This document shows, one piece after another, positions 30,280 to 44,796 of a stretch of DNA of 64,000 nt. Each line of letters opens with the position of its first letter. The stretch's first letter is position 1. The position numbers were made by a program, and so were the translations under genes. The stretch comes from Prauserella muralis (GTDB taxonomy: Bacteria > Actinomycetota > Actinomycetes > Mycobacteriales > Pseudonocardiaceae): NCBI RefSeq assembly GCF_003202285.1, contig NZ_MASW01000002.1, positions 1,116,001-1,180,000 on the forward strand, in the 5' to 3' direction. The notes beneath the pieces are model-generated. The model searched no databases and was not told the origin of the DNA. It worked only from the letters and a program-made list of their open reading frames with translations.

Positions 30280-30360
30280 GCTACGTCGGGTCTCCCGAGG
30301 ATGGGGTCGCGTGGCCGGCGACGCCACGACCGGAGCCCACAGCAGGGGAGTGACCACGGC

Positions 30361-31563
30361 ATGGATCTGCGCTACTCACCGGAGGCCGAACGGTTCCGGA
30401 AGGAGATCCGGCGCTGGCTGGACGAGTCGGTCCCCCCTGCGTGGCGCGTGCCCGGGTTCTGGCTCGAGCGCGACGGCACCACCGAGTCGCTCGACCTGCG
30501 GCGGCGGTGGGAACGGGACCGCTTCGACAACGGGTTCGCCGGGGTCGACTGGCCGGTCGAGCTCGGCGGGCGCGGGGCGGGCCACGAGACGCGCGCGGTG
30601 CACGACGAGGAGATGGCGCGAGCACGGGCCCCGATCGGTCCCTACCTCGGCCTGACCTACCTCGGCACGACCCTGCTCGGGCCGACGCTGCTGCGGTACG
30701 GGACCGCCGAGCAGAAGCGCAGGCTGCCGGGCATCCTCTCCGGTGACACGATCTGGTGCCAGGGATTCTCCGAACCGGAGAGCGGCAGCGACCTCGCCGG
30801 CCTGAGGACCACCGCCGTGCGCGACGGTGACGCGCTGGTGGTCACCGGTCAGAAGATCTGGACCTCCATGGCCCGCTACGGCGACGCGATGTTCGCCCTG
30901 GTGCGCACCGGGCCGCCGGACTCACGCCACCGCGGCATCACGTTCCTGCTGATCGACCTGACGTTGCCCGGCGTCGAGGTGCGGCCGATCCGCCAGCTGT
31001 CCGGATCGTGCGATTTGGGGCACGAGTTCCTCGACGCCGTGCGCGTACCGATCGAGGGCAACGTGGTCGGCGAGATCGACGGAGGGTGGGAGGTGGCCAG
31101 GTACCTGCTCTCGGTCGAACGGCAGGCCTCGCCGATCGGCCAGTACGTGGAGTTCCTGCACGAGCTGGACGACGTGATCGCCGCGGCCCGCCGCACGGCC
31201 AAGGATGGTCGCCCCGCCATCGAGCACCCGTCGATCCGGGCGCGGATCGCCCGCTGCAGGGCCGATCTCGAACTGCTGCGCGTGCGCGCCTACGACACGA
31301 TGACCCGGCTCGGCCGGGGCGAGGATCCGGGCAGCGAGGCCTCGGTCACCAAGCTGCTGTGGTCGCGGACGCGCCTGGCGATCGCCGACCTCGGTGCCGA
31401 CGTGCTGGGTGTGGACGGCCAGCGCAGCTCGGCGCCCGCGGGCGAGCGGGCAGGCCACCTGCGCTGGCGGCACCTGCAGGTGCGGGGTCAGCGCATCGCG
31501 GGCGGCACCGCCCAGATCCAGCGCACGCTGGTCGCGCGTGACCTGCTGGGGCTGCCCCGATGA
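30361..31563 (+). CDS. Acyl-CoA dehydrogenase (large/alpha-like subunit)
   Basis: A 400-residue FAD-dependent acyl-CoA dehydrogenase. Motifs are WCQGFSEPESGSDLAGLRTT, the FAD-binding VVTGQKIWTSMARYGD, GHEFLDAVRVPIEGNVVGEI, and the C-terminal RIAGGTAQIQRTLVARDLLG. The start has GGGGAG. The stop overlaps the enoyl-CoA hydratase start (ATGA). With the divergent dehydrogenase-like protein it could form a two-subunit enzyme acting on a branched or cyclic acyl-CoA, as in steroid or terpenoid side-chain breakdown. Confidence 0.88.
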   Translation: MDLRYSPEAERFRKEIRRWLDESVPPAWRVPGFWLERDGTTESLDLRRRWERDRFDNGFAGVDWPVELGGRGAGHETRAVHDEEMARARAPIGPYLGLTYLGTTLLGPTLLRYGTAEQKRRLPGILSGDTIWCQGFSEPESGSDLAGLRTTAVRDGDALVVTGQKIWTSMARYGDAMFALVRTGPPDSRHRGITFLLIDLTLPGVEVRPIRQLSGSCDLGHEFLDAVRVPIEGNVVGEIDGGWEVARYLLSVERQASPIGQYVEFLHELDDVIAAARRTAKDGRPAIEHPSIRARIARCRADLELLRVRAYDTMTRLGRGEDPGSEASVTKLLWSRTRLAIADLGADVLGVDGQRSSAPAGERAGHLRWRHLQVRGQRIAGGTAQIQRTLVARDLLGLPR

Positions 31564-32387
31564 GCGGCACCGCGATCGGCTCCGGAACCGCGCTGTTCGC
31601 GCTCGGCGGCGACGTCGGCACGGTGACCCTGAACCGGCCGCAGCGCCGCAACGCCATCTCGTGGCAGCTCGTCGAGGACCTGCTCGCCGCTCTGGAGCGG
31701 GCCAGGGCCGCCGAGGGACTGCGCGTTCTCGTCCTCACCGGAGCGGGCGGTGACTTCTGTGTCGGTGCCGACCTGGCCAGGGTCGGCTCGCGGCACGCGC
31801 AGGACCAGGAGACGCGCACGCTGCGAGGGCGCTCCGTGGCCGACGACCGCGCGCGGCTGGCCGTGGCGTCGACGGTGGTGGAGTCGATCGTGTCATTTCC
31901 CATGCCGACGATCGCCGCCGTCGACGGTGCCTGTGCCGGTGCCGGGCTGTCGCTGGCACTGGCCACCGACTTCCGGCTCGCCGCCCCCGCGGCGGTGTTC
32001 AACACGGCGTTCGTGAGCGCGGGCGTGTCCGGCGACCTGGGCAGCGCCTGGCTGCTCACGCGCGTGGTCGGCAGTGCCCGCGCGCGGACGCTGCTGCTCG
32101 ACCCTCGCAAGCTGACGGCGGCGGAGGCGCTGGATGCCGGGCTCGTCACCGAGGTCGCGGCGGATCTGCCCGCCCGGGTCGGCGAGCTGGCGGGCAAGCT
32201 CGCGGGCCAGGCGCCGAAGGCGATGCGGTACGCGAAGGAGAACCTGGCCGACGCCGGGCGGTACACGTTGGCCGACTACCTGCAACGCGAGGTGCCGCGC
32301 ATGGTGGACTGCGCACGCAGCGACGACGCGCGCCAGGCGGCACGCGCCTTCGTGGAGAAACGCCGACCGGTGTTCACCGGAGAGTAG
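31560..32387 (+). CDS. Enoyl-CoA hydratase/isomerase family protein
   Basis: A 275-residue crotonase-fold enzyme. The oxyanion-hole motifs are GGDFCVGADL and AVDGACAGAGLSLALATDFR. The two glutamates of typical hydratases are not obvious: the second motif reads FVSAGVSGDLGSAWLLTRVVG, where the usual ENLG/D position is SGDLG. It could therefore be an isomerase or other crotonase rather than a hydratase. It is translationally coupled to the dehydrogenase and lies nine bases before the CoA-transferase. Confidence 0.86.
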   Translation: MSGTAIGSGTALFALGGDVGTVTLNRPQRRNAISWQLVEDLLAALERARAAEGLRVLVLTGAGGDFCVGADLARVGSRHAQDQETRTLRGRSVADDRARLAVASTVVESIVSFPMPTIAAVDGACAGAGLSLALATDFRLAAPAAVFNTAFVSAGVSGDLGSAWLLTRVVGSARARTLLLDPRKLTAAEALDAGLVTEVAADLPARVGELAGKLAGQAPKAMRYAKENLADAGRYTLADYLQREVPRMVDCARSDDARQAARAFVEKRRPVFTGE

Positions 32388-32395
32388 GAGCGGGA

Positions 32396-33526
32396 ATGAC
32401 CACCCCACTGGCGGGCGTCCGGGTCGTCGAGTTCGGTCACTACATCGCGGCACCGGCGGCGACCCAGCTGCTGGCCGATCTCGGCGCCGACGTCGTCAAG
32501 GTCGAGCCTCCGGCCGGCGACCAGGCCCGCACCATCGGCGCGTACGGCGAGGGCATCGTGCTGGCGTTCAACCGCGGCAAGAGGTCGGTCGTGCTCGACC
32601 TCAAGCGAGCCGACGACAAGCGCGCGGCGCGGCAGCTGATCGCCGAGGCGGACGTGGTCGTCCAGAACCTCCGCGCCGGAACGCTGGCCCGCCTCGGCCT
32701 CGGTGCCGAGGATCTCCTGCCGGAACACCCCCGGCTCGTCCACGTCTCGGTCAGCGGATTCAGCTCCAAGGGACCCTCGGCCTCGCGGGCGGGCCTGGAC
32801 ATCGCCGCGCAGGCGGAAAGCGGCCTGATGTCGATCAACGGGGAGCAGGACGGCGACCCGCTGCGCGTCGGGTTCCCGATCGCCGACGTCGCCGCCAGCT
32901 ACGCGGTCGTGCAGGGTGTGCTCGCCGCGCTGCTGCGCCGGGAACGCACCGGCCGGGGCGGTGTCGTGGAGGTGTCGCTGGTTGACGCGATGATCCACAT
33001 GCAGTCCGCGATGTGGGGTGAGTGGCACGCCTCCGGCCACGAGCCGCGGCGCAAGGGCAACGGTCAGGCGACGGTGGCCCCGGCGGCGGATCTGATCCAC
33101 ACCGCCGACGGAGCCATCGTGCTGTCGGCCTACACCGCCGAGCACTTCGCCCGGCTGTGTGAACTCATGGGCAAGACGTGGATGCTCGAGGACCCGCGCT
33201 TCGCCGACAACCCGTCCCGGGTGGCGAACCGGGACGTCCTGCTGGCCGAGATCTCCGAGGCGTTCGGCACCCTCGGCACCGACGAGTGCCTTGCCGCGCT
33301 GGGCGAGCGCGGTCTCGTCGCGGCGGCGGTACGCACGTACCGGGAGGTGGCCGCGGCGCCCGACACGCGCTCCAGCGGGATCCTGACCACCGGGGTGAGC
33401 CCCGACGGCGAGCGCTACGCCATCCCTTCGCTGCCGTTCACGCTCGACGGCGTCGATCCCGCACCGGACCGGGCGGTGCCAAAGGCGGGCGCGGACACCG
33501 GCACCCTCCCGAGGCACCAGCCTTGA
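32396..33526 (+). CDS. CaiB/BaiF-type (class III) CoA-transferase
   Basis: A 376-residue class III CoA-transferase. GVRVVEFGHYIAAPAATQLL and LGADVVKVEPPAGDQAR form the CoA-binding N-terminus, and the catalytic Asp is present in ASRAGLDIAAQAESGLMSIN, unlike the paralogue at 13512. It is likely to charge the carboxylate imported by TctABC with CoA, feeding the two dehydrogenases and the crotonase. It shares their transcript. Confidence 0.88.
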   Translation: MTTPLAGVRVVEFGHYIAAPAATQLLADLGADVVKVEPPAGDQARTIGAYGEGIVLAFNRGKRSVVLDLKRADDKRAARQLIAEADVVVQNLRAGTLARLGLGAEDLLPEHPRLVHVSVSGFSSKGPSASRAGLDIAAQAESGLMSINGEQDGDPLRVGFPIADVAASYAVVQGVLAALLRRERTGRGGVVEVSLVDAMIHMQSAMWGEWHASGHEPRRKGNGQATVAPAADLIHTADGAIVLSAYTAEHFARLCELMGKTWMLEDPRFADNPSRVANRDVLLAEISEAFGTLGTDECLAALGERGLVAAAVRTYREVAAAPDTRSSGILTTGVSPDGERYAIPSLPFTLDGVDPAPDRAVPKAGADTGTLPRHQP

Positions 33527-33558
33527 CCGCCAAGGCGAGGCGGGCTTTGGATCACACG

Positions 33559-34596
33559 ATGAAGGTCCACGAACTGGAGTGCTTCCTCGCCGTCGTCGAT
33601 CACGGCAGCATCACCCGGGCCGCGTCGGCCCTCTACCTGGCCCAGCCTTCCCTGTCGCAGATCATCCGCAGGCTGGAAGCGGAGCTCAGCGTCGAGCTGT
33701 TCCGCCGGGTGGGGCGCGGGCTGGTGCTCACTCCAGCGGGTGAGGCGCTCGTCGGCCCGGCGCGGCAGGTGATTCGCGACCTCCAGCACGCTCGCCAGGT
33801 CGCCGACGAGTACCGCGGGCTGGAGCGCGGCAGGGTCGACCTCGCGATCTCCGCCTCGCTGACGTCGAACTTCCTGGCCGCGTGGGTGGGCCATTTCCGC
33901 CGCAAGCATCCGGGCCTCACCGTCCGTCTGATGCAGCACTACGGCGACACCGAGGACATCGTCGGCCTGATCAGATCGGGGGAGGCCGAGCTCGCCTACA
34001 CCGTGACGCCCGTGTCGCGGCACGGGATCGAGTGCATCCACGTCGGTGACGGGGAGGTCGTGCTGGCGCTGCCGCCCGGCTGGCGCACCGAGTTTCCCGA
34101 CCCGGTCCCCATCGCGATGCTCGACGGCCTGCCCATGATCATCGATCGGGGGTTCGGGCGGTCGTACCTGCAGTCGATTCGTGACGCCAGCGGGGTCGAG
34201 CCCGCCGTGGTCGTCGACGTCTCCGAGTCCGCGGGCCTGGTTCCCCTGATCGTCGCGGGAGCCGGTGCCGCGTTCCTGCCGATGCGCCAGGCCCTCGATG
34301 CGCGGCGGCGGGGAGCGAACCTGCGCCTGCTCGACCCGCTCACCTTCCGGCCGATCTACGCCATCATGCCTGCCACGCCGCTCTCGGTTCCGGCCCGCAA
34401 GTTCCTGGAACTCAGCAAGGAGAACCTGGAGCGGTGGCGGCGAGCCGTCGCGCGGCGCACCGATGAGGGGCGCAGCCTGCTGGAGGCCGCCGTCGAAGCC
34501 GACAACGTGATCGAGGCCGCCTACCAGCGCCTGGGGGAGCGGCCGAGTGAACCGGCCGGCCACCCGGAAACCGGCGACCGGTTCAGCCCGCTCTGA
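33559..34596 (+). CDS. LysR-family transcription regulator
   Basis: A 345-residue LysR regulator with HTH (MKVHELECFLAVVDHGSITR, LYLAQPSLSQIIRRLEAELS) and an effector domain (VGDGEVVLALPPGW, GLVPLIVAGAGAAFLPMRQA). It is about 40 residues longer than usual, ending in a charged tail (VEADNVIEAAYQRLGERPSE). The ATG at 33559 is chosen for the conserved MKVHELECF start; a TTG at 33523 overlapping the previous stop is possible. It ends the acyl-CoA operon and is a candidate ligand of the large dyad at 30183-30279. Confidence 0.88.
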   Translation: MKVHELECFLAVVDHGSITRAASALYLAQPSLSQIIRRLEAELSVELFRRVGRGLVLTPAGEALVGPARQVIRDLQHARQVADEYRGLERGRVDLAISASLTSNFLAAWVGHFRRKHPGLTVRLMQHYGDTEDIVGLIRSGEAELAYTVTPVSRHGIECIHVGDGEVVLALPPGWRTEFPDPVPIAMLDGLPMIIDRGFGRSYLQSIRDASGVEPAVVVDVSESAGLVPLIVAGAGAAFLPMRQALDARRRGANLRLLDPLTFRPIYAIMPATPLSVPARKFLELSKENLERWRRAVARRTDEGRSLLEAAVEADNVIEAAYQRLGERPSEPAGHPETGDRFSPL

Positions 34597-34767: not shown

Positions 34768-35577
34768 GTGGCCAAGGAGGGCGGGACGGGCGGAGACGGT
34801 CGTCGGTCGGTCACGGTCCGGGCGACGTCGCTACTGAACGCGTTCGACACCGAGCATCGGGCCCTGAACCTGTCCCAGCTGTCCCGTCGCAGTGGACTGC
34901 CACTGGCCACCGTGCACCGGCTGGCCGCCGATCTGGTGGAAAGCAGGCTGCTGGTCCGCAGGCTGGACGGCCGCTACGAGATCGGGGCGCTGTTGTGGCG
35001 GCTGGGCCGGCTCGCGCCACCCACCGAGCTTCGTGAGCTCGCCCTGCCCCATCTGCAGGACGTCGTCGTCACCACGGGCCACACGGTGCATCTCGCGGTG
35101 CTGGAAGGTACCCGTGCGCTCGTGATCGAGCGGCTGGCCGGCACGAAGACCGTCCCGACACGGCACAGCCCCGGCGACGACGTTCCGCTGTACTGCACCG
35201 CCGTCGGCAAGGCCCTGCTGGCGTATGCCGACCCCGCGCTGATCGACAGGGTCGCGGGCGAGCTCAGCCCGCACACGGCCTACACCATCACCAGCCCGGC
35301 CGTGCTGCACCGGCAGCTGGACGAGATCCGCAGAACCGGGCTGGCCCGCAGCGCGCAGGAGCACCGGCTCGGGGTGTCGTCACTCGCCGTACCCGTGCAC
35401 GGGCACGACGGCGTCGTGGCCGCGCTCGGCCTGCTGGCGCCCCTGCGGGCGCCCCGCCTCGCCGACGCGCTGCCGCATCTGCGTGCCGCGTCGGCCTCCG
35501 TCAGCGCCGACTTCCTGCGCAGCGGGCTCGCCGTCGCGTCCTCCGGCGCGGACGGATCGCGAAACGCTTCCGGATAG
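34768..35577 (+). CDS. IclR-family transcription regulator
   Basis: A 269-residue IclR regulator: winged HTH in the first 75 residues (TSLLNAFDTEHRALNLSQLS, GLPLATVHRLAADLVESRLL) and a GAF-like effector domain (TRHSPGDDVPLYCTAVGKAL, RSAQEHRLGVSSLAVPVHGH). The GTG at 34768 follows a TACGCT -10 by seven bases, so the message is probably leaderless. It sits 49 bases before acetoacetyl-CoA synthetase on the same strand, and IclR-like sites precede both genes, so it most likely controls the putative carboxylation cluster. Confidence 0.9.
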   Translation: MAKEGGTGGDGRRSVTVRATSLLNAFDTEHRALNLSQLSRRSGLPLATVHRLAADLVESRLLVRRLDGRYEIGALLWRLGRLAPPTELRELALPHLQDVVVTTGHTVHLAVLEGTRALVIERLAGTKTVPTRHSPGDDVPLYCTAVGKALLAYADPALIDRVAGELSPHTAYTITSPAVLHRQLDEIRRTGLARSAQEHRLGVSSLAVPVHGHDGVVAALGLLAPLRAPRLADALPHLRAASASVSADFLRSGLAVASSGADGSRNASG

Positions 35578-35596
35578 TGAAAGGGTCTTGTTGTCC
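35567..35596 (+). promoter_or_regulatory. IclR-like site and promoter of the carboxylation cluster
   Basis: CTTCCGGATAGTGAAAG (35567-35583) matches the palindrome at 34660 at 11 of 17 positions, keeping TTCCG, TAG and AA. Just downstream are TTGTCC (35591-35596), a 17-base gap and GACCAT (35614-35619), seven bases before the ATG at 35627. The site is then centred near -52, a usual activator position. The site overlaps the IclR stop codon. Confidence 0.5.
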
Positions 35597-35626
35597 CGCG
35601 GCCCGTGCTCGGTGACCATCTGGCGC

Positions 35627-37642
35627 ATGTCCAGCACGGTGACGCACCAGCGAGCAGGCCGGGGCCCGGTCCACGAGGGCGACCTGCTGTGGACGCCGCC
35701 GCCCGAGCGCGCCGAGAGCACGGCGCTCACCGCCTTCACCCGCTTCGCCGAGCAACGCACGGGCCGCACCTTCGCCGACTACGCGGCGCTGTGGCGCTGG
35801 TCGACCACCGAGCCGGCCGAGTTCTGGCAGCTGGTCTGGGACTTCTTCGACATTCGCTCCTCGGCACCGCACACGGCGGTGCTGACCGAGCCGGCGATGC
35901 CCGGCGCGCGGTGGTTTCCCGGCGCCCGCCTCAACTTCGCCGAGCACATCCTGCGCAGGGAACACCAGGACGGGCCTGCCCTGGTGTACGCCGCCGAAGC
36001 CGGGCCCGTGCACGAGCTGTCGCGGACGGACTTCGCCGGCCAGGTGCGAGCACTGGCGACCCAGCTGCGGTCGAGGGGGGTCGGTCCAGGCGACCGGGTG
36101 GTGGCCTACCTGCCCAACGTGCCGGAGGCGATGGTCGCGATGGTCGCGACTGCCTGCGTCGGTGCCGTGTGGGCATGCGTCTCCCCGGACTTCGGCGCGC
36201 GCGGCGCGCTCGACCGGCTCGCCCAGCTCAGCCCGAGGGTGCTGTTCGCCGCCGACGGCTACCGCTACGGCGGACGGGAGTTCGACCGGCGCGGCGAGGT
36301 GGCCGACCTGGTGGCGGGGCTGCCCACGCTGCGCGAGATCGTGCGGGTGCCGGTGCTGGGACTCGACGTACCCGGCACGACGTGGAACGACGTCGTGGAC
36401 ACCCGCGCGGTCGCCGCCGGCGAGTTCGCCTGCGAGCAGGTGCCCTTCGACCACCCGCTGTGGGTGCTGTTCACCTCGGGAACCACCGGCCTGCCCAAGC
36501 CGATCGTGCAGGGCCACGGCGGCATCCTGCTGGAGCAGCTCAAGACACAGGCCTTCCACGCGGACCTCCGCCCCGGCGACCGGGCGTTCTTCTTCACCAC
36601 CACGGGATGGATGATGTGGAACTTCCTGGTCGGCACCCTGCTGTCCGGCAGCGTTCCCGTCCTCTACGACGGCAACCCGACGCACCCCGGCGTGGACGAG
36701 CTCTGGCGGATCGCGCAGGACAGCCGCGCGAGCCTGTTCGGTGCGAGTCCCACGTTCGTGGAACTGATGCGCAAGAACGGGGTGGTTCCCCGGGAACGCT
36801 TCGACCTCTCCAGCCTGCGGACGGTGATGCCGGCAGGTTCCCCGGTCTCGCCGGCGATCACCGCCTGGTTCTACGAGAACGTCAAGGACGAGCTGTGGGT
36901 CGCCACCGGCAGCGGGGGAACCGACGTCTGCACCGGTCTGGTCGGAGGGGTACCCACGCTGCCGGTGCGTGCGGGAGAGATCCAGGGCCGGTCGCTCGGC
37001 GTCGCCGCCGAGGCGTGGGACGACGCGGGAAACGCCGTCATCGGCAAGCCCGGCGAGCTGGTCGTCACCCGGCCAATGCCTTCCATGCCGCTGTACCTCT
37101 GGGGCGACGAGGACGGTGAGCGGTACCGGGCCAGCTACTTCGACGTCTTCCCGGGGGTCTGGCGGCACGGCGATGTCCTGGAGATCAACGAGCGGGGTGG
37201 CTGCTTCGTGCGCGCGCGTTCCGATGCCGTGCTCAACCGGCACGGCGTCCGCATCGGCACCGCCGAGATCTACCGGGTCGTCGAGGACGATCCGGCGGTG
37301 TCGTCGTCGCTGGTGGTCAATCTGGACCTGCCGGACGGAGGGTTCTTCATGCCACTGTTCGTCGAGCTCGCCCCCGGGTCCGAACTGGACGACACGGTGC
37401 GCGCGCGCCTGCGCAGGCGGCTGCGCGAGGAGTACTCGCCGCGACACGTCCCCGATCGGATCATCGGCGTGCGCACGATCCCGCTGACCCGCAGTGGCAA
37501 GAAGATGGAGGTGCCCGTTCGCAGGCTCCTGCTGGGCGCCGAGGCCGGCTCGGTCGCCGACCCCGCCGCCATGGCCGACCCCGGGGCGCTGGCCGACTTC
37601 GTCGAGTACGCCCGCCACCAGCGGGACTTTGCCCTCGCCTGA
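35627..37642 (+). CDS. Acetoacetyl-CoA synthetase (acetoacetate-CoA ligase)
   Basis: A 671-residue AMP-forming acetoacetate-CoA ligase, about the expected length. Family features are the WSTTEPAEFWQLVWDFFDIR and AMPGARWFPGARLNFAEHIL N-terminal segments, the adenylate motif FTSGTTGLPKPIVQGHGG (from about residue 282), the acetoacetate-specific TTTGWMMWNFLV, and the catalytic Lys region TRSGKKMEVPVRRLLLG. It converts acetoacetate, ATP and CoA to acetoacetyl-CoA. Being the first gene of the phosphotransferase/carboxylase operon, it indicates that acetoacetate or a close beta-keto acid is the pathway product. The next gene starts 26 bases later. Confidence 0.92.
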   Translation: MSSTVTHQRAGRGPVHEGDLLWTPPPERAESTALTAFTRFAEQRTGRTFADYAALWRWSTTEPAEFWQLVWDFFDIRSSAPHTAVLTEPAMPGARWFPGARLNFAEHILRREHQDGPALVYAAEAGPVHELSRTDFAGQVRALATQLRSRGVGPGDRVVAYLPNVPEAMVAMVATACVGAVWACVSPDFGARGALDRLAQLSPRVLFAADGYRYGGREFDRRGEVADLVAGLPTLREIVRVPVLGLDVPGTTWNDVVDTRAVAAGEFACEQVPFDHPLWVLFTSGTTGLPKPIVQGHGGILLEQLKTQAFHADLRPGDRAFFFTTTGWMMWNFLVGTLLSGSVPVLYDGNPTHPGVDELWRIAQDSRASLFGASPTFVELMRKNGVVPRERFDLSSLRTVMPAGSPVSPAITAWFYENVKDELWVATGSGGTDVCTGLVGGVPTLPVRAGEIQGRSLGVAAEAWDDAGNAVIGKPGELVVTRPMPSMPLYLWGDEDGERYRASYFDVFPGVWRHGDVLEINERGGCFVRARSDAVLNRHGVRIGTAEIYRVVEDDPAVSSSLVVNLDLPDGGFFMPLFVELAPGSELDDTVRARLRRRLREEYSPRHVPDRIIGVRTIPLTRSGKKMEVPVRRLLLGAEAGSVADPAAMADPGALADFVEYARHQRDFALA

Positions 37643-37668
37643 TCCGTCCGCACGAAGAGGAGACAACG

Positions 37669-39489
37669 ATGTCCCAGCCACCCGGCGAGCGATCGTTCCC
37701 GCTGCCGTCCCAGGTTCCCACGGTCCCCGGCGCGGAGGGCTGGCAGGAGATGTATCCCTACTTCAGCCGCTTCCAGCCCGAGGACGACCATCGGTTCTGG
37801 TTCTACAACTCGATGCACTTTCCCGAGGCGGTCCCGGCGTTCGACAGCATCACCTCCGAGATCCCGTACACCGCGATCGGCGCGAACACCGCCCGGCTGT
37901 TCTCGTTCCCGACGACGATGGGCATCGAGTACCGGATCGTCAACGGCCGCGTCTACATCACCGCGAACCCTGTCGTCGACGAGGCGGAACAGGCCGAGCG
38001 GCTGGAGCACTTCCAGGAGCGGGCGGGGCACTACTACTCCCACTGGGACCGGCTCTACGCCGAGTGGCAGCAGCGGATCGACGCGCTGATCGCCGAGATC
38101 GAGGCCATCGAGGTCCCGCGGCTCGGTGAGCTCGAGGACCTCGCGGTCATCACCGAGGCTCGCGGCGTCGCCTCGAACCACTTCCTGCGGGAGAACTTCC
38201 ACCGCTGCATCGACCTCTACTCCAAGATGTGGCACCACCACACCGAGTTCCTGATGCTCGGGTACGGCGCCTACGTCGTGTTCTTCGAGTTCTGCACCAC
38301 GGCGTTCCCGGAGATCGGTGACCAGACCGTGGCGCGCATGGTCGCCGGCATGGACGTCACGATGTACCGGCCGGACGACGAGCTCAAGAAGCTGGCGGCC
38401 TTGGCCGTGGAACTCGGCCTCGGGGACCTGTTCGCCGAGGGCGGCCACCCGGGCACCGTGCTGAGCTCGCTGCGTGAGCGCGGTGACGCGGGCGCGAGGT
38501 GGCTGGAGGCGCTGGAGGCGGCGAAGAACCCGTGGTTCAACGTCTCGGTCGGTGACGGCTTCTACCATCACCACCTGTCCTGGGCCGACGACCTCAGCGT
38601 GCCGTTCTCGGCGCTGTCCGGCTACGTCGAGCAGGTCGCCAACGGCGAGGACCTCAGGAGGCCGACCGGCCGGCTGGCCGAGGAGCGGGACCGGATCGCC
38701 GCGGAGTACCGCGCCCTGCTGCAATCGGAGGAGGAGAAGGCAGCCTTCGACCAGATGCTCGGACTCTGCAGGCAGGTGTTTCCCTACATCGAGTCCCACA
38801 AGTTCTACTGCGAGCACTGGTTCACGACCCGCTTCTTCCAGAAGATCCGCGCGTTCGGTCAGCTGCTCGCCGAGCGCGGTGTCCTCGAGCAGGCCGACGA
38901 CGTCTTCCACCTCCGGCACGTCGAGGTCGAGGACGCGCTCGCCGACGTGATGCTCGCCTGGGCCTCCGGCGGGAGGGAGCTCGGCGCACGGCACTGGCAG
39001 CCGATCGTCGCCCGCCGCAAGCAGATCGTCGACGCACTGGCTCAGTGGTCACCTCCGCCCGCGCTCGGCCCGGTGCCCGAGGCGCTCAACGACCCCGCGG
39101 TGCGGATGCTCTGGGGCGTCACCGACGAGACGATCGAGACCTGGCTCGGCGACCAGGAACTCGACGAACACACCGTTCGCGGGAACGCGGCCTCGCCCGG
39201 CGTCGTGGAGGGCACCGCCCGGGTCCTGATGAACGTCAACGAGATCGGCCGCATCCGCGAAGGCGAGATTCTCGTCTGTCCGGTCACCGCCCCCAGTTGG
39301 GGCCCGGTGTTCGGCAAGATCGCCGCGGCCGTCTCCGACATCGGCGGCACGATGTCGCACGCGGCGATCGTCGCCCGCGAGTACGGCATGCCCGCCGTCG
39401 TCGGTACCGGCAAGGCCACGAGCGTCATCAAGACCGGCGACCGCGTCCGCGTCGACGGTGACCGTGGCATCGTCACGGTCGTCGGCTGA
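37669..39489 (+). CDS. PEP-synthase-like phosphotransferase, swivel-His subunit (PpsA-like)
   Basis: A 606-residue protein ending in a PEP-utilizer swivel domain (about residues 505-606): AASPGVVEGTARVLMN and GGTMSHAAIVAREYGMPAVV, with the phosphohistidine at His564. The first 500 residues are helical, rich in Trp, Tyr and His (MYPYFSRFQPEDDHRFWFYN, YSKMWHHHTEFLMLGYGA) and match no domain I know; they replace the pyruvate/PEP-binding barrel of PEP synthase. Size and layout resemble the larger subunit of phenylphosphate synthase. It should pass a phosphoryl group from the partner at 39501 to a small acceptor bound by the N-domain. RBS is AGAGGAG. Confidence 0.82.
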   Translation: MSQPPGERSFPLPSQVPTVPGAEGWQEMYPYFSRFQPEDDHRFWFYNSMHFPEAVPAFDSITSEIPYTAIGANTARLFSFPTTMGIEYRIVNGRVYITANPVVDEAEQAERLEHFQERAGHYYSHWDRLYAEWQQRIDALIAEIEAIEVPRLGELEDLAVITEARGVASNHFLRENFHRCIDLYSKMWHHHTEFLMLGYGAYVVFFEFCTTAFPEIGDQTVARMVAGMDVTMYRPDDELKKLAALAVELGLGDLFAEGGHPGTVLSSLRERGDAGARWLEALEAAKNPWFNVSVGDGFYHHHLSWADDLSVPFSALSGYVEQVANGEDLRRPTGRLAEERDRIAAEYRALLQSEEEKAAFDQMLGLCRQVFPYIESHKFYCEHWFTTRFFQKIRAFGQLLAERGVLEQADDVFHLRHVEVEDALADVMLAWASGGRELGARHWQPIVARRKQIVDALAQWSPPPALGPVPEALNDPAVRMLWGVTDETIETWLGDQELDEHTVRGNAASPGVVEGTARVLMNVNEIGRIREGEILVCPVTAPSWGPVFGKIAAAVSDIGGTMSHAAIVAREYGMPAVVGTGKATSVIKTGDRVRVDGDRGIVTVVG

Positions 39490-39500
39490 GAGGAGTGCCC

Positions 39501-40589
39501 ATGAACACCACGCCACCGATCCTGCACTTCACCGAGCTCGGCCGGGACGATGCCGGGGTCGCGGGCGGCAAGGGTGCCAGCCTCGGGGAACTGCTGCGCG
39601 CGGGCATCCGCGTGCCCGACGGCTTCGTCGTGACCACCGCGGCGTTCCGGTCGGCGGTCACGGCACTGGACCTCGGATCCCGCGTCGCGGCGCTCGACCC
39701 CGCCGACGCCGACGGCCTCGCCGCGACGTGCGCCGAGCTGCGGTCGGTCGTCGAGTCGGCGCCGCTGCCCTCCGACGTCGCCGAGGCCGTTCTGGGCGCC
39801 TACACCGAGTTCGCCGCCGGTTGCGGTGACCGGTACCTGCCGGTGGCCGTTCGCTCCAGCGCCACCAGCGAGGACTCCGCCGAGGCCAGCTTCGCGGGGC
39901 TGCAGGACACCTACCTGTGGATCCGCGGCGAGGACCAGGTCCTCGACCATGTCCGGCGCTGCTGGGCGAGTCTGTACAGCGCCGAGTCGGTGACGTACCG
40001 GTTGCGCCGCGGTGTTGCCGAGGACGAGCTGGCCATGGCTGTCGTCGTCCAGCGGATGGTCGCCGCACGCACCTCCGGCGTCATGTTCACCCGCAGCCCG
40101 CTCACCGGCGACCGTTCGGTGGTCGCCATCGACGCCAGCTGGGGTCTCGGGTCGGCCGTGGTCAGCGGGGACGTCACCCCCGACTCGTTCGTGGTCAGCA
40201 AGGTGACCGGCGACATCGTTCGCCGGACGGTGTCGGTCAAGACACGCTGGCACCAGCCCGGCCCCGGCGGCGACGGCACGGTGGACGGTGACGTTCCGGA
40301 GCACCTGCAGGCCGCGCCGTCGCTGTCGGACGACGAGATCGCCGAGCTGGTCGCGCTCGCGCGGAGAGTGGAGGACCACTACGGGTGCCCGCAGGACATC
40401 GAATGGGCCGTGCCGAGAACGGCACCGCCCGGCGAGAACGTCGTCGTGCTGCAGAGCCGCCCCGAGACGGTGTGGAGCGGACGAGACGCGACCGCGGACC
40501 GGCCCAAGGCCGCCGTGCCCACGGCGCGCGCCTTCGACCACGTCTTCAACCTGCTGCGCGGTACCCGCGCCGGGGGACGGCGGCCATGA
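39501..40589 (+). CDS. PEP-synthase-like ATP-binding subunit (PpsB-like)
   Basis: A 362-residue protein equal to the N-terminal ATP-grasp-like domain of PEP synthase/PPDK. GVAGGKGASLGELLRAGIRV, LPVAVRSSATSEDSAEASFA, GLQDTYLWIRGEDQVLDHVR and the C-terminal DIEWAVP and VVLQSRPETVW match that domain. It should use ATP to phosphorylate the histidine of the swivel subunit encoded 11 bases upstream. Such stand-alone halves are known from phenylphosphate synthase and a few related kinases. The ATG has GAGAGGAG; its stop overlaps the carrier-protein start. Confidence 0.87.
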   Translation: MNTTPPILHFTELGRDDAGVAGGKGASLGELLRAGIRVPDGFVVTTAAFRSAVTALDLGSRVAALDPADADGLAATCAELRSVVESAPLPSDVAEAVLGAYTEFAAGCGDRYLPVAVRSSATSEDSAEASFAGLQDTYLWIRGEDQVLDHVRRCWASLYSAESVTYRLRRGVAEDELAMAVVVQRMVAARTSGVMFTRSPLTGDRSVVAIDASWGLGSAVVSGDVTPDSFVVSKVTGDIVRRTVSVKTRWHQPGPGGDGTVDGDVPEHLQAAPSLSDDEIAELVALARRVEDHYGCPQDIEWAVPRTAPPGENVVVLQSRPETVWSGRDATADRPKAAVPTARAFDHVFNLLRGTRAGGRRP

Positions 40590-41110
40590 CGCTGAGCCCC
40601 GACGACGTCCGCGACGTGCTGCGGGCGCTGGATTCCAGCGGCCTCGACGAGCTCCATCTCGAGCTGAGCGACTTCACGCTCACCGTGCGGCGGCACGGCA
40701 CGAGTGGCTGGACCGCCGAGCAGCAGGTGCTGCGCACACCCTCGGTCGAGCAGGCCACCACCGCGCCGGCGGGGGCCGCTGAGCGGCCGCGGCACCGCGC
40801 AGCGGACCACGACGGGGCCGTGGCGGTGCGGCCGCCGCTGCCGGGCACCTTCTACCGGGCGCCGCAACCGGGTGCGCCACCGTTCGTGGACGTCGGCGAC
40901 GACGTCGACGAGGACACCGTCGTCGGCATCGTCGAGACGATGAAGATGATGACACCGGTGCACGCCGGTGTCCGGGGAACGGTCGTGGAGTTCCGCACGG
41001 ACAACGGCGAGCTCGCCGACACCGAGGCGGTGCTGCTTCTCGTGGAGCCCGCGCCCGGCTCGTCCGGTGAGGACGGCACCGGCGGCGACGGCGATGGGGC
41101 GGGCCGATGA
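40586..41110 (+). CDS. Biotin carboxyl carrier protein
   Basis: A 174-residue carrier. Its C-terminal biotinyl domain has the acceptor Lys120 in the motif IVETMKMMTPVHAG. An N-terminal element (DELHLELSDFTLTVRRHG) as in AccB-type carriers is joined by a Pro/Ala/Arg linker, and a Gly/Asp tail (about residues 158-174) follows the domain, which is unusual. A similar LTVRRH element ends the carboxyltransferase at 42468. It overlaps both neighbours by ATGA, so the stoichiometry of carrier, kinase half and carboxylase is coupled. Confidence 0.9.
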   Translation: MTLSPDDVRDVLRALDSSGLDELHLELSDFTLTVRRHGTSGWTAEQQVLRTPSVEQATTAPAGAAERPRHRAADHDGAVAVRPPLPGTFYRAPQPGAPPFVDVGDDVDEDTVVGIVETMKMMTPVHAGVRGTVVEFRTDNGELADTEAVLLLVEPAPGSSGEDGTGGDGDGAGR

Positions 41111-42468
41111 GGATCCGCCGCCTGCTCATCGCCAACCGCGGCGAGATCGCCGTGCGGGTGATCCGCACGTGCCGGCGGCTCGGGATCGAGTCGGTGCTCG
41201 CCGCCTCCGACGCGGATCTGGACGGTCTGCCCGCACGCCTGGCCGACCGGGTCGTCCGGCTCGGTCCCGCGCCCGCTTCGGAGTCCTATCTGGACATCGA
41301 CGCGGTCGTCGCGGCGGCGCGGTCGGTGAGTGCCGATGCGGTGCACCCCGGATACGGCTTTCTGTCGGAGAACGCGGCGCTGGCGCGCGCGTGCGCCGCC
41401 GCGGACGTCGTCTTCGTCGGCCCGGCACCGGATTCCCTGGAAGCGGTCGGCGACAAGCTCTCCGCCCGCCGGCATGCCGTCGCCGCCGGGCTCGACGTGA
41501 TACCCGGCGGGCAGGCCACCGACCTGGCGGAGGCGCGCGCACTGGCCGAGGCGATCGGATATCCGCTTCTCGTCAAGGCGGTCGGCGGTGGCGGCGGCCG
41601 GGGCATGAAGCTCGTGCGCTCCGCGGGCGAGCTGTCGCGGACGCTCGATCTCGCGATCTCCGAGGCCGCGGCCGCCTTCGGCGACCCGCGGGTGTATCTG
41701 GAACGCTTCGTCGCCTCCGGCAGGCACGTCGAGGTGCAGGTCCTCGGAGACGGCAGCAGGGCGGTGGCTCTCGGGGATCGCGACTGCTCGGTGCAACGCC
41801 GCTACCAGAAGCTGGTCGAGGAAGCGCCGGCGCCGCTGCTCGCCGAACAGACGCACACCGCGATGGCACGAGCGGCCCTCGCCCTGGCGACCCACCTTCG
41901 TTATCGCGGGCTCGGCACCGTCGAACTGCTCTACGACAGGCAGCTGCGGACGTTCTACTTCCTGGAGATGAACGCCCGGATCCAGGTCGAGCACCCCGTC
42001 ACCGAGATGGTCACGGGGCTGGATCTGGTGGCGGAGCAACTGCGGGTCGCCGAGGGATTGCCGCTGCAGCTTCGCCAGGAGGACGTCGTCCTTTCCGGAC
42101 ACGCGGTCGAGTGCCGGATCAACGCCGAGGACTGGACGCGAGGCTTCCGGCCGTCCCCGGGGCGGGTCGACCGGGTCGTGCTGCCCGCCGGTGACGGCAT
42201 CCGCGTCGACACCCACGTGCAGGGCGGCTCCGTCGTGCCGCCGCACTACGACTCGTTGCTGGCCAAGCTGATCGTGCACGGGACGGACCGTGCCGACGCG
42301 CTCGCCCGGGCCCGCGCCGCTCTGGGGCTGCTGTCGATCGACGGCGTGGACACGACGGCGCCGATGCACGAGGCGCTGCTGGCCGACCCCGAGTTCACCG
42401 CCGGGGGAGTGGACAGCACGTTCTTCGACCGGTTCGCCGGCAAGACCCGCCTTCTGGAGGTGTCGTGA
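41107..42468 (+). CDS. Biotin carboxylase subunit
   Basis: A 453-residue biotin carboxylase, the full length of AccC. MRIRRLLIANRGEIAVRVIR opens the biotin-carboxylase N-domain; the ATP-grasp glycine loop reads GGGGGRGMKLV; the catalytic segment FLEMNARIQVEHPVTEMVTG and C-terminal DSLLAKLIVHG are intact. It carboxylates the biotin on the carrier using ATP and bicarbonate. Because the partner carboxyltransferase is of the pyruvate-carboxylase type, this subunit is not part of an acyl-CoA carboxylase. Start and stop overlap neighbouring genes. Confidence 0.92.
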   Translation: MRIRRLLIANRGEIAVRVIRTCRRLGIESVLAASDADLDGLPARLADRVVRLGPAPASESYLDIDAVVAAARSVSADAVHPGYGFLSENAALARACAAADVVFVGPAPDSLEAVGDKLSARRHAVAAGLDVIPGGQATDLAEARALAEAIGYPLLVKAVGGGGGRGMKLVRSAGELSRTLDLAISEAAAAFGDPRVYLERFVASGRHVEVQVLGDGSRAVALGDRDCSVQRRYQKLVEEAPAPLLAEQTHTAMARAALALATHLRYRGLGTVELLYDRQLRTFYFLEMNARIQVEHPVTEMVTGLDLVAEQLRVAEGLPLQLRQEDVVLSGHAVECRINAEDWTRGFRPSPGRVDRVVLPAGDGIRVDTHVQGGSVVPPHYDSLLAKLIVHGTDRADALARARAALGLLSIDGVDTTAPMHEALLADPEFTAGGVDSTFFDRFAGKTRLLEVS

Positions 42469-43949
42469 TGGCCGAGGTCGGGCTGGTCGACGTGTCACTG
42501 CGGGACGGCAACCAGAGCCTGTGGGGCGCGGCGGGCCTGCGCACCGGGCACGTCCTGCAGCTGGCACCGCTGCTGGAACGTGTCGGGTTCCGCGCGCTCG
42601 ACTACAGTTCGAGCACCGCCATGGGGATGCTCGTGCGGGTACACCGAGAGAACCCATGGGACCTGATCCGGCGCACCAGGGCGGTGATGCCGACGACCAA
42701 GCTGCAGTTCATCGGCACCGGGTTCCGGTTCATCTCCTGGCAGAACTCGCATCCGGACACCATGCAGCTGGTCTACGACCGGCTGGTCGCCTGCGGGATC
42801 GACCGGGTCGTCGTACTCGACCCGATGCACGACATGGAGGCCGTCCGAGCAACGGCCCGCAGGCTCAAGAAGGCCGGGGTCGACGAGGTGGTCGGCGCGC
42901 TGACGTTCACGATCAGCGCTGTCCACGACGACGCCTTCTACGCCGACCTCGCCCGGCAGCTGCGCGAGTGCCCTGACGTGGATCGCGCCTACGTCAAGGA
43001 CCCGGCGGGCATCCTGACCGCCGAGCGGGCCCGCACTCTGCTGCCCGCGGTCAGGAAACAACTCGGTGACACCCCGCTCGAACTGCACTCGCACGCCACG
43101 ATCGGCCTGTCGGCGCTGACCTACTCGATCGCACCGGAGCTCGGCGTCGAGGTCGTGCAAACGGCCTGTGGCGCGCTGGGTAACGGCTCGTCGTTGCCGG
43201 AGGCGCGGCGGACGGTCGCCAACCTGCGCGAGATGGGCCACCGGGTGGACATCGACGACCGGGCTCTCGGCCTGGCGTGCGACTTCGTCACGCGGCTGGC
43301 CGGCGCGGAGGAGCTTCCCGCGGGACAGCCGCAGGAGTTCGACGCCGCGTTCCTGCATCACCAGACCGCGGGCGGAGTGCTGACGACGACCAGGCGGCAG
43401 CTCCGCGAGATCGGCATGGAGGACCGCTTCGGCGCGCTCATCGAGGAGGTCGGCCGCGTTCGCGCGGAGCTGGGACATCCGATCATGGTGACCCCGTTCC
43501 CGCAGATGGTCGTCTCCCAGGCACTGTTCAACGTGATCGGGCAGCGCTACTCCAACGTCCCGGACCAGGTGATCCGGTACGCACTGGGCAGTTTCGGCCG
43601 CCCGACGGCGCCGATCGACGCGGATGTGCTCGACCGCATCCTCGACCGGCCGCGTGCGCGGGAGCTGCGCGCGGAGCCTCCGCCTCCGTCCCCTGCCGAG
43701 CTGCGCCGCCGGTTCGGTCCGGCGATCAGCGACGAGGAACTCCTCCTCCGGGCCCACATGCCTGCCGAGCAGGTCGACGCGATGATCGCCGCCGGGCCGC
43801 CGAGCAGGCACTACAACCCCGCCGTGACGCCGGTGCTCGCCCTGCTCGACGGGCTCGGGCAGCGCAGGACGATCCACGACCTCACGGTGGACAAACCCGG
43901 GCTGCGCCTGACCGTGCGGCGTCATGCGGAAGGAACCACCCGTGCCTGA
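42468..43949 (+). CDS. Carboxyltransferase subunit of pyruvate-carboxylase/OadA type
   Basis: A 493-residue TIM-barrel carboxyltransferase of the HMGL-like/PYC_OADA class. DVSLRDGNQSLWGA (Asp8, Arg12, Gln16), the carbamylated-lysine motif VKDPAGILT (Lys177) and the metal histidines LELHSHATIG (His207, His209) are visible. The class moves CO2 to the methyl carbon of enolpyruvate, so a methyl ketone is a chemically close acceptor. Several positions differ from true pyruvate carboxylase (LWGA for LLAT, DPAG for DMAG), in line with a different substrate. ATG at 42468 follows GGAGG. Confidence 0.85.
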   Translation: MAEVGLVDVSLRDGNQSLWGAAGLRTGHVLQLAPLLERVGFRALDYSSSTAMGMLVRVHRENPWDLIRRTRAVMPTTKLQFIGTGFRFISWQNSHPDTMQLVYDRLVACGIDRVVVLDPMHDMEAVRATARRLKKAGVDEVVGALTFTISAVHDDAFYADLARQLRECPDVDRAYVKDPAGILTAERARTLLPAVRKQLGDTPLELHSHATIGLSALTYSIAPELGVEVVQTACGALGNGSSLPEARRTVANLREMGHRVDIDDRALGLACDFVTRLAGAEELPAGQPQEFDAAFLHHQTAGGVLTTTRRQLREIGMEDRFGALIEEVGRVRAELGHPIMVTPFPQMVVSQALFNVIGQRYSNVPDQVIRYALGSFGRPTAPIDADVLDRILDRPRARELRAEPPPPSPAELRRRFGPAISDEELLLRAHMPAEQVDAMIAAGPPSRHYNPAVTPVLALLDGLGQRRTIHDLTVDKPGLRLTVRRHAEGTTRA

Positions 43950-44796
43950 CTCTGACCCCGCGGCCCTGGACCGCCTGGGCCACGTACGTGGCTTCGTCCT
44001 CGACCTGGACGGAACCCTGGTGATGGGCGACCGCGACAACCGGGGCCTGCGCCCGCTGCCGGGGGCCCTGGATCTGGTGCACCTGCTGCTCGAGAGGGGC
44101 CTGCCGTTCTGCGTGTTCACCAACGGCACGGTGAAGACACCGCGGCAGTGTGCGGACGCGCTGCGGGACGCGGGGTTCCCGATGGCCGAAGAGGCGGTCC
44201 TCACGCCGGCGATCTCCGCGGCTCAGGTCTTCCGCCAGCGGGGGCATCGAAGGGTCATGGTCCTCGGTGGCAAGGGCATCACCGAACCACTGGAGGCAGC
44301 CGGCATCGACACCCTGCCCCCGCTGCGGGGTACGAGCGTCGATGCCGTGTTCGCGGGCTGGTATCGCCACGAGCTCACGTTCGAGTCGCTGGAGGCGGCC
44401 TGTTTCGCGGTGTTCGAGGGAGCCGCCTTCTACAGCGCCTCGGAGTCGCTGTTCTTCGCCACCTCCGAAGGGCCCACGCTCGGCACCTCGCGGGCGATCA
44501 GTGCCGTCGTGCGTGACGTCACCCGCACCGAGGTGACCGTCGTCGGCAAGCCTGCCCTGCCTGCCCTGCGGGCGGCGGAAAGCCTGCTCGGCATCCCGGC
44601 CGCCGAGCTGGCGGTCGTCGGCGACGACCCGGACCTCGAGGTGCCGATGGCGCACCGGGGCGGTGCGATGGCCGTCGCCGTGCACACCGGCATCGGCCAC
44701 GCGCAGTCGTTCACCGGCCTGCCCGACGACGCCCGCCCTCACCTGGACGTGGCCGACGTGGGTGTTCTCGCGAGGCTGCTCGCCGGTTCCGGCTGA
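43942..44796 (+). CDS. HAD-IIA (NagD-like) phosphatase
   Basis: A 284-residue HAD-superfamily hydrolase with the IIA cap. The nucleophile motif FVLDLDGTLV gives Asp21/Asp23; motif II is CVFTNGTVKTP; the Lys motif is VVGKPALPAL and the last acidic motif VVGDDPDLEVP. GTG at 43942 is preferred to ATG at 43924 because GGAAGGA lies seven bases before it; it overlaps the carboxyltransferase stop. As last gene of the cluster it may remove a stray phosphorylated intermediate, or dephosphorylate a product; this is inference. Confidence 0.85.
   Translation: MPDSDPAALDRLGHVRGFVLDLDGTLVMGDRDNRGLRPLPGALDLVHLLLERGLPFCVFTNGTVKTPRQCADALRDAGFPMAEEAVLTPAISAAQVFRQRGHRRVMVLGGKGITEPLEAAGIDTLPPLRGTSVDAVFAGWYRHELTFESLEAACFAVFEGAAFYSASESLFFATSEGPTLGTSRAISAVVRDVTRTEVTVVGKPALPALRAAESLLGIPAAELAVVGDDPDLEVPMAHRGGAMAVAVHTGIGHAQSFTGLPDDARPHLDVADVGVLARLLAGSG

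Follow-up and report, generated by a model that had tools for sequence, protein, structure and literature searches.

A single operon of Prauserella muralis joins the genes of a biotin-dependent carboxylase with a gene pair resembling phosphoenolpyruvate (PEP) synthase, which raises the question of what substrate such a combination serves. The operon lies in a stretch of 64,000 nucleotides, hereafter called the window. The first-pass annotation proposed a new system in which acetone or butanone is first converted to its enol phosphate; carboxybiotin then carboxylates this to acetoacetate (3-oxopentanoate from butanone), which is linked to CoA. Judging by the sequence, the operon is very probably of the Hpe/Acv type and serves p-hydroxyaryl methyl ketones, for example, 4-hydroxyacetophenone or acetovanillone. 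The hydroxyphenylethanone (Hpe) pathway, by which soil bacteria consume plant-derived hydroxyphenyl ketones, was published in 2022 (PMC9618137).

Organization and conservation of the operon

Gene content, gene order and conservation were observed directly. All eight genes were found on the forward strand between positions 34768 and 44796, in the following order:

34768..35577, + strand: IclR-family regulator with HTH_IclR and IclR_C domains (PF01614 and PF09339; profile scan from 34774)
35627..37642, + strand: HpeE-like acyl-CoA ligase of the acetoacetate--CoA ligase family, 671 aa (TIGR01217)
37669..39489, + strand: HpeH-like dikinase subunit, substrate-binding part and swivel His domain, 606 aa (NF006153, PF00391, motif, fold)
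39495..40589, + strand: HpeI-like dikinase subunit, ATP-grasp PPDK_N, 364 aa (PF01326, 343.8 bits)
40586..41110, + strand: HpeC-like biotin carboxyl carrier protein, 174 aa, with the ETMKMM biotinylation site (PF00364 over cut-off)
41107..42468, + strand: biotin carboxylase subunit, 453 aa (PF00289, PF02786, PF02785)
42465..43949, + strand: carboxyltransferase subunit, PYC_OADA, 494 aa (PF02436 over cut-off)
43924..44796, + strand: HpeD-like HAD-IIA phosphatase, 290 aa (PF13344/PF13242)

Given the start codons adopted for this analysis, the ligase gene lies 26 bp from the first kinase gene and the two kinase genes are 5 bp apart, while the genes downstream of the pair overlap successively by 4, 4, 4 and 26 bp. 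The operon is thus nearly as first described.

Sixteen loci of Geodermatophilaceae and Pseudonocardiaceae (L037–L053 without L041, located on a short contig) were searched by tblastn for the ORFs lying between window positions 20001 and 60000. One of these loci, L037, belongs to the type strain Geodermatophilus tzadiensis DSM 45416. The carrier, biotin carboxylase, carboxyltransferase and HAD phosphatase genes are each present in all 16 loci; 15 loci have both kinase genes, 12 the ligase gene and five the IclR gene, while genes outside the operon are matched in at most one. The grouping of the genes is therefore not due to chance. Wherever they occur in these loci, the kinase, carrier, carboxylase and HAD proteins share about 67–87% identity with their window counterparts. 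No conservation with the operon is seen for the flanking genes encoding acyl-CoA dehydrogenase, enoyl-CoA hydratase, CoA transferase, LysR, AraC and berberine-type oxidase. None of the flanking genes in the window points to hydroxyacetophenones, and this, like the absence of the ligase gene beside the operon in four of the 16 close relatives, is a point against the Hpe-type reading. In the L038 locus, a kinase gene is truncated, and a run of N occurs further downstream, between the carrier and biotin carboxylase genes.

A wider set contained 80 related loci, of which 62 had enough flanking sequence to be counted and 18 were dropped for short flanks. The HAD phosphatase is found in 60 of the 62 loci, the dikinase in 34 and an unrelated UPF0261 protein in 26, the last two never together; with short flanks included, the figures for all 80 loci are 75, 38 and 27, respectively. 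The near-universal phosphatase fits a phosphate that is kept through carboxylation, and not an enol phosphate consumed at that step, in which case the enzyme would be left without a role. In the UPF0261/Tm-1-like carboxylase clusters (P. putida YC-AE1, Sphingobium, Novosphingobium, Geobacter), the UPF0261 protein, a non-homologous kinase candidate, replaces the dikinase; the carrier, biotin carboxylase and carboxyltransferase are 55–65% identical to those of the window, a HAD gene is usually present, and the gene order is the same. We assume that these clusters are probably of the MarK type.

Relationship to the Hpe pathway and other known systems

The closest described system is that of Rhodococcus rhodochrous GD02 (hpeHICBADEF; PMC9618137, PMC12167813), with which the window shares the gene set except hpeF. 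In both, a two-component dikinase, a three-subunit biotin carboxylase, a HAD phosphatase and an AMP-forming CoA ligase are encoded in one operon of overlapping genes with regulator genes upstream, and the HAD gene follows the carboxylase genes. The GD02 kinase, carboxylase and phosphatase have been purified and assayed: in 4-hydroxyacetophenone or acetovanillone it is the phenolic OH that the kinase phosphorylates, the carboxylase accepts phosphorylated ketones only, and once these are carboxylated the phosphate is taken off by the HAD enzyme (PMC9618137). HpeCBA of GD02 could not be produced in E. coli (PMC9618137). By analogy with these homologues, the kinase pair probably does activate a methyl ketone and the biotin enzyme probably carboxylates the methyl carbon beside the carbonyl, as the first-pass annotation expected, and the capture of a beta-keto acid by the acetoacetyl-CoA-synthetase-like ligase also appears well founded. 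The proposed acetone or butanone substrate finds no support, since the homologous enzymes take phenols and phosphorylated aryl ketones (PMC9618137, PMC12167813). The same applies to phosphorylation of an enol oxygen, given the phenolic specificity in GD02 and the frequency of the HAD phosphatase, and to the novelty of the system, the same gene set having already been assayed (PMC9618137). The operon appears to be kin to the published Hpe pathway and would therefore be a new member of a known system and not a new acetone pathway.

Several differences speak against the Hpe-type reading. The ligase gene comes first in the window, whereas in GD02 it follows the phosphatase gene, and hpeF is absent beside the operon, with homologues elsewhere in the genome. 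However, Sphingobium sp. SYK-6 is said to lack both HpeE and HpeF homologues and to use VceA/VceB (PMC9618137), so the inclusion of hpeF defines the GD02 form of the operon only; the window, unlike SYK-6, has an HpeE-like ligase. The SYK-6 genes AcvABCDEF encode a kinase pair, a biotin carboxylase and a phosphatase, as in the window (PMC9618137, PMC13101465), and are homologous and syntenous with hpeHICBAD (PMC9618137). In Aromatoleum aromaticum EbN1, the biotin carboxylase XccABC, homologous to HpeCBA and clustered with hpeHI homologues, belongs to an anaerobic ethylphenol/4-hydroxyacetophenone route (PMC9618137). GD02, SYK-6 and EbN1 were likened to the window by description, and the rhodococcal cluster L117 on a plasmid of Rhodococcus sp. 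JS3073 served as the sequence stand-in for GD02. This cluster encodes, one after another, H, I, carrier, biotin carboxylase, carboxyltransferase, HAD phosphatase, ligase and hydrolase; in its kinase, S573, M579, C580 and H581 agree in residue and position with those published for HpeH. The identity between the window and JS3073 proteins is 49% for H, 40% for I, 53% for biotin carboxylase, 44–45% for carboxyltransferase, 35% for HAD phosphatase and 43% for ligase.

These levels of only 35–53% are a further point against the Hpe-type reading. They would be consistent with the same chemistry on another phenolic ketone, such as a longer-chain 4-hydroxyaryl ketone or an acetophenone with a 3-hydroxy group or more substituents, as would the placement of the window kinase in a well supported group of its own, containing 17 rows of the kinase tree. 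PMC13101465 also reports that the GD02 and SYK-6 kinases differ in preference. However, according to the same paper, acetosyringone is less preferred than 4-hydroxyacetophenone and acetovanillone, both of which are converted in each of the three pathways compared, and the neighbourhood gives no pointer to any particular alternative. Another phenolic ketone is possible but rather unlikely.

The kinase pair of phenylphosphate synthase, encoded on a plasmid of Azoarcus sp. KH32C (L118), is 44% (H) and 46% (I) identical to that of the window. Downstream of the Azoarcus pair lie ppc and UbiD-family genes, and downstream of the window pair those of a biotin carboxylase. Ring carboxylation of the phenylphosphate type was rejected, there being no UbiD-type gene in the operon.

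Features of the kinase and carboxylase

Motifs and predicted folds agree with the gene content. The description of the kinase genes as two halves of PEP synthase was correct as regards the pair, but the label is imprecise, since the first half is a subunit of the phenylphosphate-synthase/HpeH type, in line with the link to phenylphosphate synthase that had already been drawn. It matches the PRK08296-type model NF006153 with 791 bits (cut-off 578). At E ≤ 0.001, Pfam assigns a single domain to each subunit, PF00391 (mobile PEP-utilizers) to the first and PF01326 to the second; the pyruvate/PEP-binding domain of PEP synthase was detected in neither. This C-terminal domain is the enol-phosphate-forming part of PEP synthase, and its absence from the Pfam results argues against the acetone reading. 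The His motif of the first subunit is SDIGGTMSH, from which the catalytic His564 was assigned, with Met two residues before it, as is typical of phenolic kinases, where PEP synthase has a regulatory Thr. The HpeH motif given in PMC12167813 is T/SxxGGxxxH, also with Met two residues before His. All six PDB matches of the predicted model at E ≤ 0.001, a model weak at the catalytic loop (540–565), are rifampin phosphotransferase, which HpeH is likewise reported to match in that paper. The phmmer matches of the second subunit are chains named phosphoenolpyruvate synthase, including rifampin phosphotransferase entries.

A tree of 46 kinases, built by a quick method and having long branches, places the window kinase inside a carboxylase-linked clade of 40 rows (SH-aLRT 99). 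The JS3073 kinase lies outside this clade, next to phenylphosphate synthase on a long branch of unresolved placement, and thus the tree gives no demonstration that the window kinase is orthologous to HpeH itself.

The carrier scores below the TIGR00531 cut-off and over that of PF00364. The carboxyltransferase retains D14, K178, H208 and H210, which we take to be metal ligands. In an alignment leaving out rows that cover under 70% of the query, its Thr85 occupies the position of an Arg present in all 24 pyruvate-carboxylase rows, and 97% of the 86 Hpe-like rows, including JS3073, likewise have Thr there. This Arg belongs to the LLRG motif, 72 residues past the metal Asp (spacing measured in four pyruvate carboxylases), and is presumably a pyruvate-binding residue; a literature search found no pyruvate carboxylase paper naming Arg621. 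The predicted fold, weak around Thr85 (85–91), is nearest to transcarboxylase 5S and also resembles pyruvate carboxylase. Together with the Pfam class PYC_OADA, this would suit an ordinary pyruvate or oxaloacetate carboxylase working with PEP synthase in anaplerosis. However, the Arg-to-Thr difference, the kinase with neither a detected pyruvate domain nor the regulatory Thr, and a separate 1154-aa open frame at C3:245098, which has its own pyruvate-carboxylase-like carboxyltransferase region, make this explanation extremely improbable.

The lack of this Arg is also compatible with acetone as the substrate. With 761 bits against a cut-off of 520.9, the ligase matches the acetoacetate--CoA ligase model TIGR01217, the gene functions are formally compatible, and the Acx gamma subunit PF08882 has no match in the genome, although the 14 control genomes are silent too. 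On the other hand, we found no open-licence paper combining acetone, phenylphosphate synthase and biotin dependence, and searches for acetone carboxylase and biotin, with and without Rhodococcus, revealed no biotin-dependent acetone carboxylase gene set in the accessible texts. A Rhodococcus acetone carboxylase was reportedly described in a 1999 paper. In view of the phenolic substrates of the homologous enzymes, the acetone route is very improbable.

Proposed pathway and its significance

The reactions of an Hpe/Acv-type operon in P. muralis can be proposed from the kinase, carboxylase and phosphatase homologues described in the literature. The ATP-grasp subunit (39495–40589) would load a phosphoryl group onto His564 of its partner (37669–39489), which would swivel and phosphorylate the phenolic OH of the ketone. 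The biotin carboxylase, carrier and carboxyltransferase, using one ATP and bicarbonate, would then carboxylate the acetyl CH3 to give phospho-aroyl-acetate, from which the HAD phosphatase would strip the phosphate. The acetoacetyl-CoA-synthetase-like ligase would form the beta-keto acyl-CoA, and an HpeF/CouO-like hydrolase encoded elsewhere would release acetyl-CoA and 4-hydroxybenzoate or vanillate, which would enter the protocatechuate route.

HpeF-like proteins have five matches in the genome, all outside the window, and the best two share 61% and 55% identity with that of JS3073. A PobA-like protein (452.7 bits, below the family cut-off) and a protocatechuate dioxygenase beta subunit (over the cut-off) are also encoded outside the operon. 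The best NCBIfam model for the IclR regulator is PcaR/PcaU/PobR, with 112.9 bits, under the cut-off of 284.75. The beta-keto acid cleavage enzyme family PF05853 has two genome matches, both on contig C8.

It is hardly credible that the Geodermatophilaceae/Pseudonocardiaceae clade redirected the Hpe kinase and carboxylase to a non-aromatic ketone via an enol phosphate, independently of Acx; if true, ketones would be carboxylated by a second route besides that of Acx. As a caution for annotation, a HAD phosphatase and a PEP-synthase-like pair found beside a biotin carboxylase should be taken as a pointer to phenol phosphorylation and not to an enol phosphate. The operon would offer more divergent kinases and carboxylases for the upgrading of acetovanillone. 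If the Hpe/Acv-type reading is right, the range of an experimentally defined pathway for lignin monomers widens to Geodermatophilaceae and Pseudonocardiaceae, where the form of its operon is conserved.

Operon composition and correspondence with the Hpe gene set

The operon proposed in the first-pass annotation at 34768–44796 (+) was borne out: an IclR regulator is followed by seven closely spaced genes.

Operon genes within 34768–44796, strand +, in 5′ to 3′ order after the IclR gene
acetoacetate–CoA-ligase-like gene
37669–39489, +, kinase subunit of the PRK08296 type, mobile His domain at its C-terminus (H)
39495–40589, +, PPDK_N ATP-grasp subunit (I)
biotin carrier
biotin carboxylase (BC)
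42465–43949, +, PYC_OADA carboxyltransferase (CT)
HAD-IIA hydrolase (HAD)

With the start codons chosen in this analysis, the final five junctions comprise a gap of 5 bp, followed by overlaps of 4, 4, 4, and 26 bp. A cluster encoding acyl-CoA dehydrogenase, enoyl-CoA hydratase, a family III CoA transferase, and a LysR regulator lies just upstream (30301–34596); it is separate from the Hpe-type operon and is not jointly conserved with it.

The gene set matches that of the hydroxyphenylethanone (Hpe) pathway of Rhodococcus rhodochrous GD02 (hpeHICBADEF), with the exception of hpeF. In GD02, HpeHI phosphorylates acetovanillone and 4-hydroxyacetophenone, the biotin-dependent HpeCBA accepts only the phosphorylated ketones, converting one ATP to ADP, and HpeD, whose closest characterised homologue is NagD, removes the phosphate from the carboxylated product (PMC9618137). 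The roles of HpeE and HpeF, as AMP-forming ligase and beta-ketoacyl-CoA hydrolase respectively, are predictions in PMC9618137. The acvABCDEF genes of Sphingobium SYK-6, essential for its growth on acetovanillone, are homologous and syntenous with hpeHICBAD (PMC9618137). RHA1 was the recipient of three such pathways, and a related route in Novosphingobium starts with the single-component kinase MarK (PMC13101465).

For GD02, a cluster on a plasmid of Rhodococcus sp. JS3073 (L117) served as the stand-in in the sequence comparisons. It consecutively encodes H, I, the carrier, BC, CT, HAD, the ligase, and the hydrolase, and its H protein has Ser573, Met579, Cys580, and His581, the HpeH residues, at the published positions. 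In Table 1 of PMC9618137, HpeA ("biotin carboxylase") is 57.4 kDa and HpeB ("carboxyltransferase") is 49.3 kDa, whereas BC and CT of JS3073 (L117:8577-11518) are 48.4 and 57.5 kDa; the two labels may be interchanged in that table.

Several observations count against the Hpe reading. The identity of the window proteins to those of the stand-in is only moderate (H 49%, I 40%, BC 53%, CT 44–45%, HAD 35%, ligase 43%). The window operon lacks hpeF, which is part of the GD02 operon, and the ligase gene, unlike in GD02, leads the operon and is absent there in four of the 16 close relatives. A quick tree built from 46 kinases places the window protein in a 40-row carboxylase-linked clade, with the JS3073 kinase outside. 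Orthology to HpeH is therefore tentative, as is the assignment of a particular substrate. Other p-hydroxyaryl ketones as the substrate are a less favoured alternative, unlikely but worth keeping in mind.

Conservation and exchange of the kinase

The ORFs of window 20001–60000 were compared with 16 Geodermatophilaceae and Pseudonocardiaceae loci (L037–L053; the short L041 was excluded). All 16 loci have the carrier, BC, CT, and HAD genes; 15 have both kinase genes, 12 the ligase, and five IclR, while any flanking gene in this region recurs in at most one. In the four Actinomycetospora loci, the ligase is absent from this position and IclR lies on the opposite strand.

Querying genome_contigs with four aligned carboxyltransferases yielded 343 relatives; the best 80 were retained, a sample skewed toward the four queries. 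Neighbours were counted in the 62 of these loci with at least 6 kb upstream and at least 1.5 kb downstream, a gene being present when at least half of the query was covered. Both dikinase genes were found in 34/62 loci, a UPF0261/Tm-1-like protein instead in 26/62, and both kinds in none; the two loci with neither by this threshold are L053 (H present, I missed) and L038. The HAD phosphatase is present in 60/62, the ligase in 26/62, and an HpeF-like amidohydrolase in 6/62. If phosphate is carried through carboxylation, an exchange of the candidate kinase before the same carboxylase and a near-constant phosphatase is to be expected, as is seen here.

The UPF0261 protein (PF06792 and PF23189, "Tm-1-like ATP-binding"), which occupies the HpeHI position before the same carboxylase (L033:8883-10130, L034:4936-6168), is probably a MarK-type single kinase. 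Among its carriers are P. putida YC-AE1 and plasmids of Sphingobium; several of the carriers are probably bisphenol A degraders producing 4-hydroxyacetophenone. The MarK study reportedly surveyed such clusters. Kinase and carboxylase genes shared a single cluster in 52 of 836 cases (PMC13101465).

A second UPF0261 gene, with 30–32% identity to that of YC-AE1, lies between the CT and HAD genes in L058, L063, L064, and L088 (Geobacter, Desulfuromonadaceae, Geobacteraceae, and Telmatospirillum). In Pseudonocardia nigra (L038:6298-8339), the ATP-grasp kinase gene preceding the carrier and carboxylase is reduced to its final 92 residues (from 7592), with a reverse-strand frame, thiolase-like by eye, directly upstream; a 95-base N run lies between the carrier and BC, away from the remnant. 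A haloarchaeal plasmid (L136:4566-11954) has an HpeHI-like kinase pair adjoining metallophosphoesterase and ring-dioxygenase-like genes, and no carboxylase was found in the annotation of the stretch shown.

Kinase and carboxyltransferase residues

The motif of the window H subunit is SDIGGTMSH: its His is His564, and Met lies two positions ahead of it. At that Met position, PEP synthase carries Thr, whereas phenolic kinases and rifampin phosphotransferase carry Met; rifampin phosphotransferase is also the reported structural match of HpeH (PMC12167813). All six PDB matches (E ≤ 0.001) of the predicted H model (pLDDT 73.8, 16 sequences) were likewise rifampin phosphotransferase, with a TM-score (query length) of 0.41–0.55 and an rmsd of 8–17 Å; near the catalytic loop the model is poor (pLDDT < 50 at residues 540–565).

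The structures nearest to the CT model (pLDDT 80.9, 11 sequences) are transcarboxylase 5S and pyruvate carboxylases. CT retains D14, K178, H208, and H210, which we take to be metal ligands. The LLRG Arg of pyruvate carboxylase, present in 24/24 rows (those of L006–L032 with >70% query coverage), is presumably the pyruvate-binding Arg, and its spacing from the metal Asp, 72 residues in the four pyruvate carboxylases measured, would fit this (71 in window CT); a literature search found no paper on this role. Window CT has Thr85 instead, as do 97% of 86 Hpe-like rows (the window and L003 rows being one gene twice), in a stretch where the model is poor (residues 85–91). Therefore, pyruvate binding in the usual mode is unlikely. 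This suits an aryl ketone but, taken alone, would also fit acetone. The original proposal, that acetone or butanone is carboxylated via its enol phosphate, is possible in principle only and highly improbable. No match to the acetone carboxylase gamma subunit was found in the window's genome, nor in any of the 14 control genomes.

Plausible downstream route and novelty

The same genome encodes a 1154-aa open frame including a pyruvate-carboxylase-like carboxyltransferase region, and two HpeF-like hydrolases with 61% and 55% identity to that of JS3073, on contigs C3 (~180 kb away) and C2. It also encodes a PobA-like protein (452.7 bits, below the 538.7 cut-off) and a protocatechuate 3,4-dioxygenase beta subunit above its cut-off. 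Together, the hydrolases, the PobA-like protein, and the dioxygenase make a route from 4-hydroxyacetophenone via 4-hydroxybenzoate to protocatechuate plausible. At C3:1341401-1342246 (L131), an HpeF/CouO-like hydrolase adjoins a MaoC-type hydratase; by eye, the neighbouring frames are SDR-like and AMP-forming-ligase-like, a layout reminiscent of p-hydroxycinnamate (cou) catabolism.

This type of pathway, the reactions of its kinase, carboxylase, and phosphatase, and the fact that Actinomycetota carry it have already been published (PMC9618137, PMC12167813, PMC13101465). No mention of Geodermatophilaceae was seen in titles and abstract openings of the open-licence hydroxyphenylethanone literature, among the matches listed. 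What is new is confined to this genome's membership and to the conserved operon form found in its relatives.
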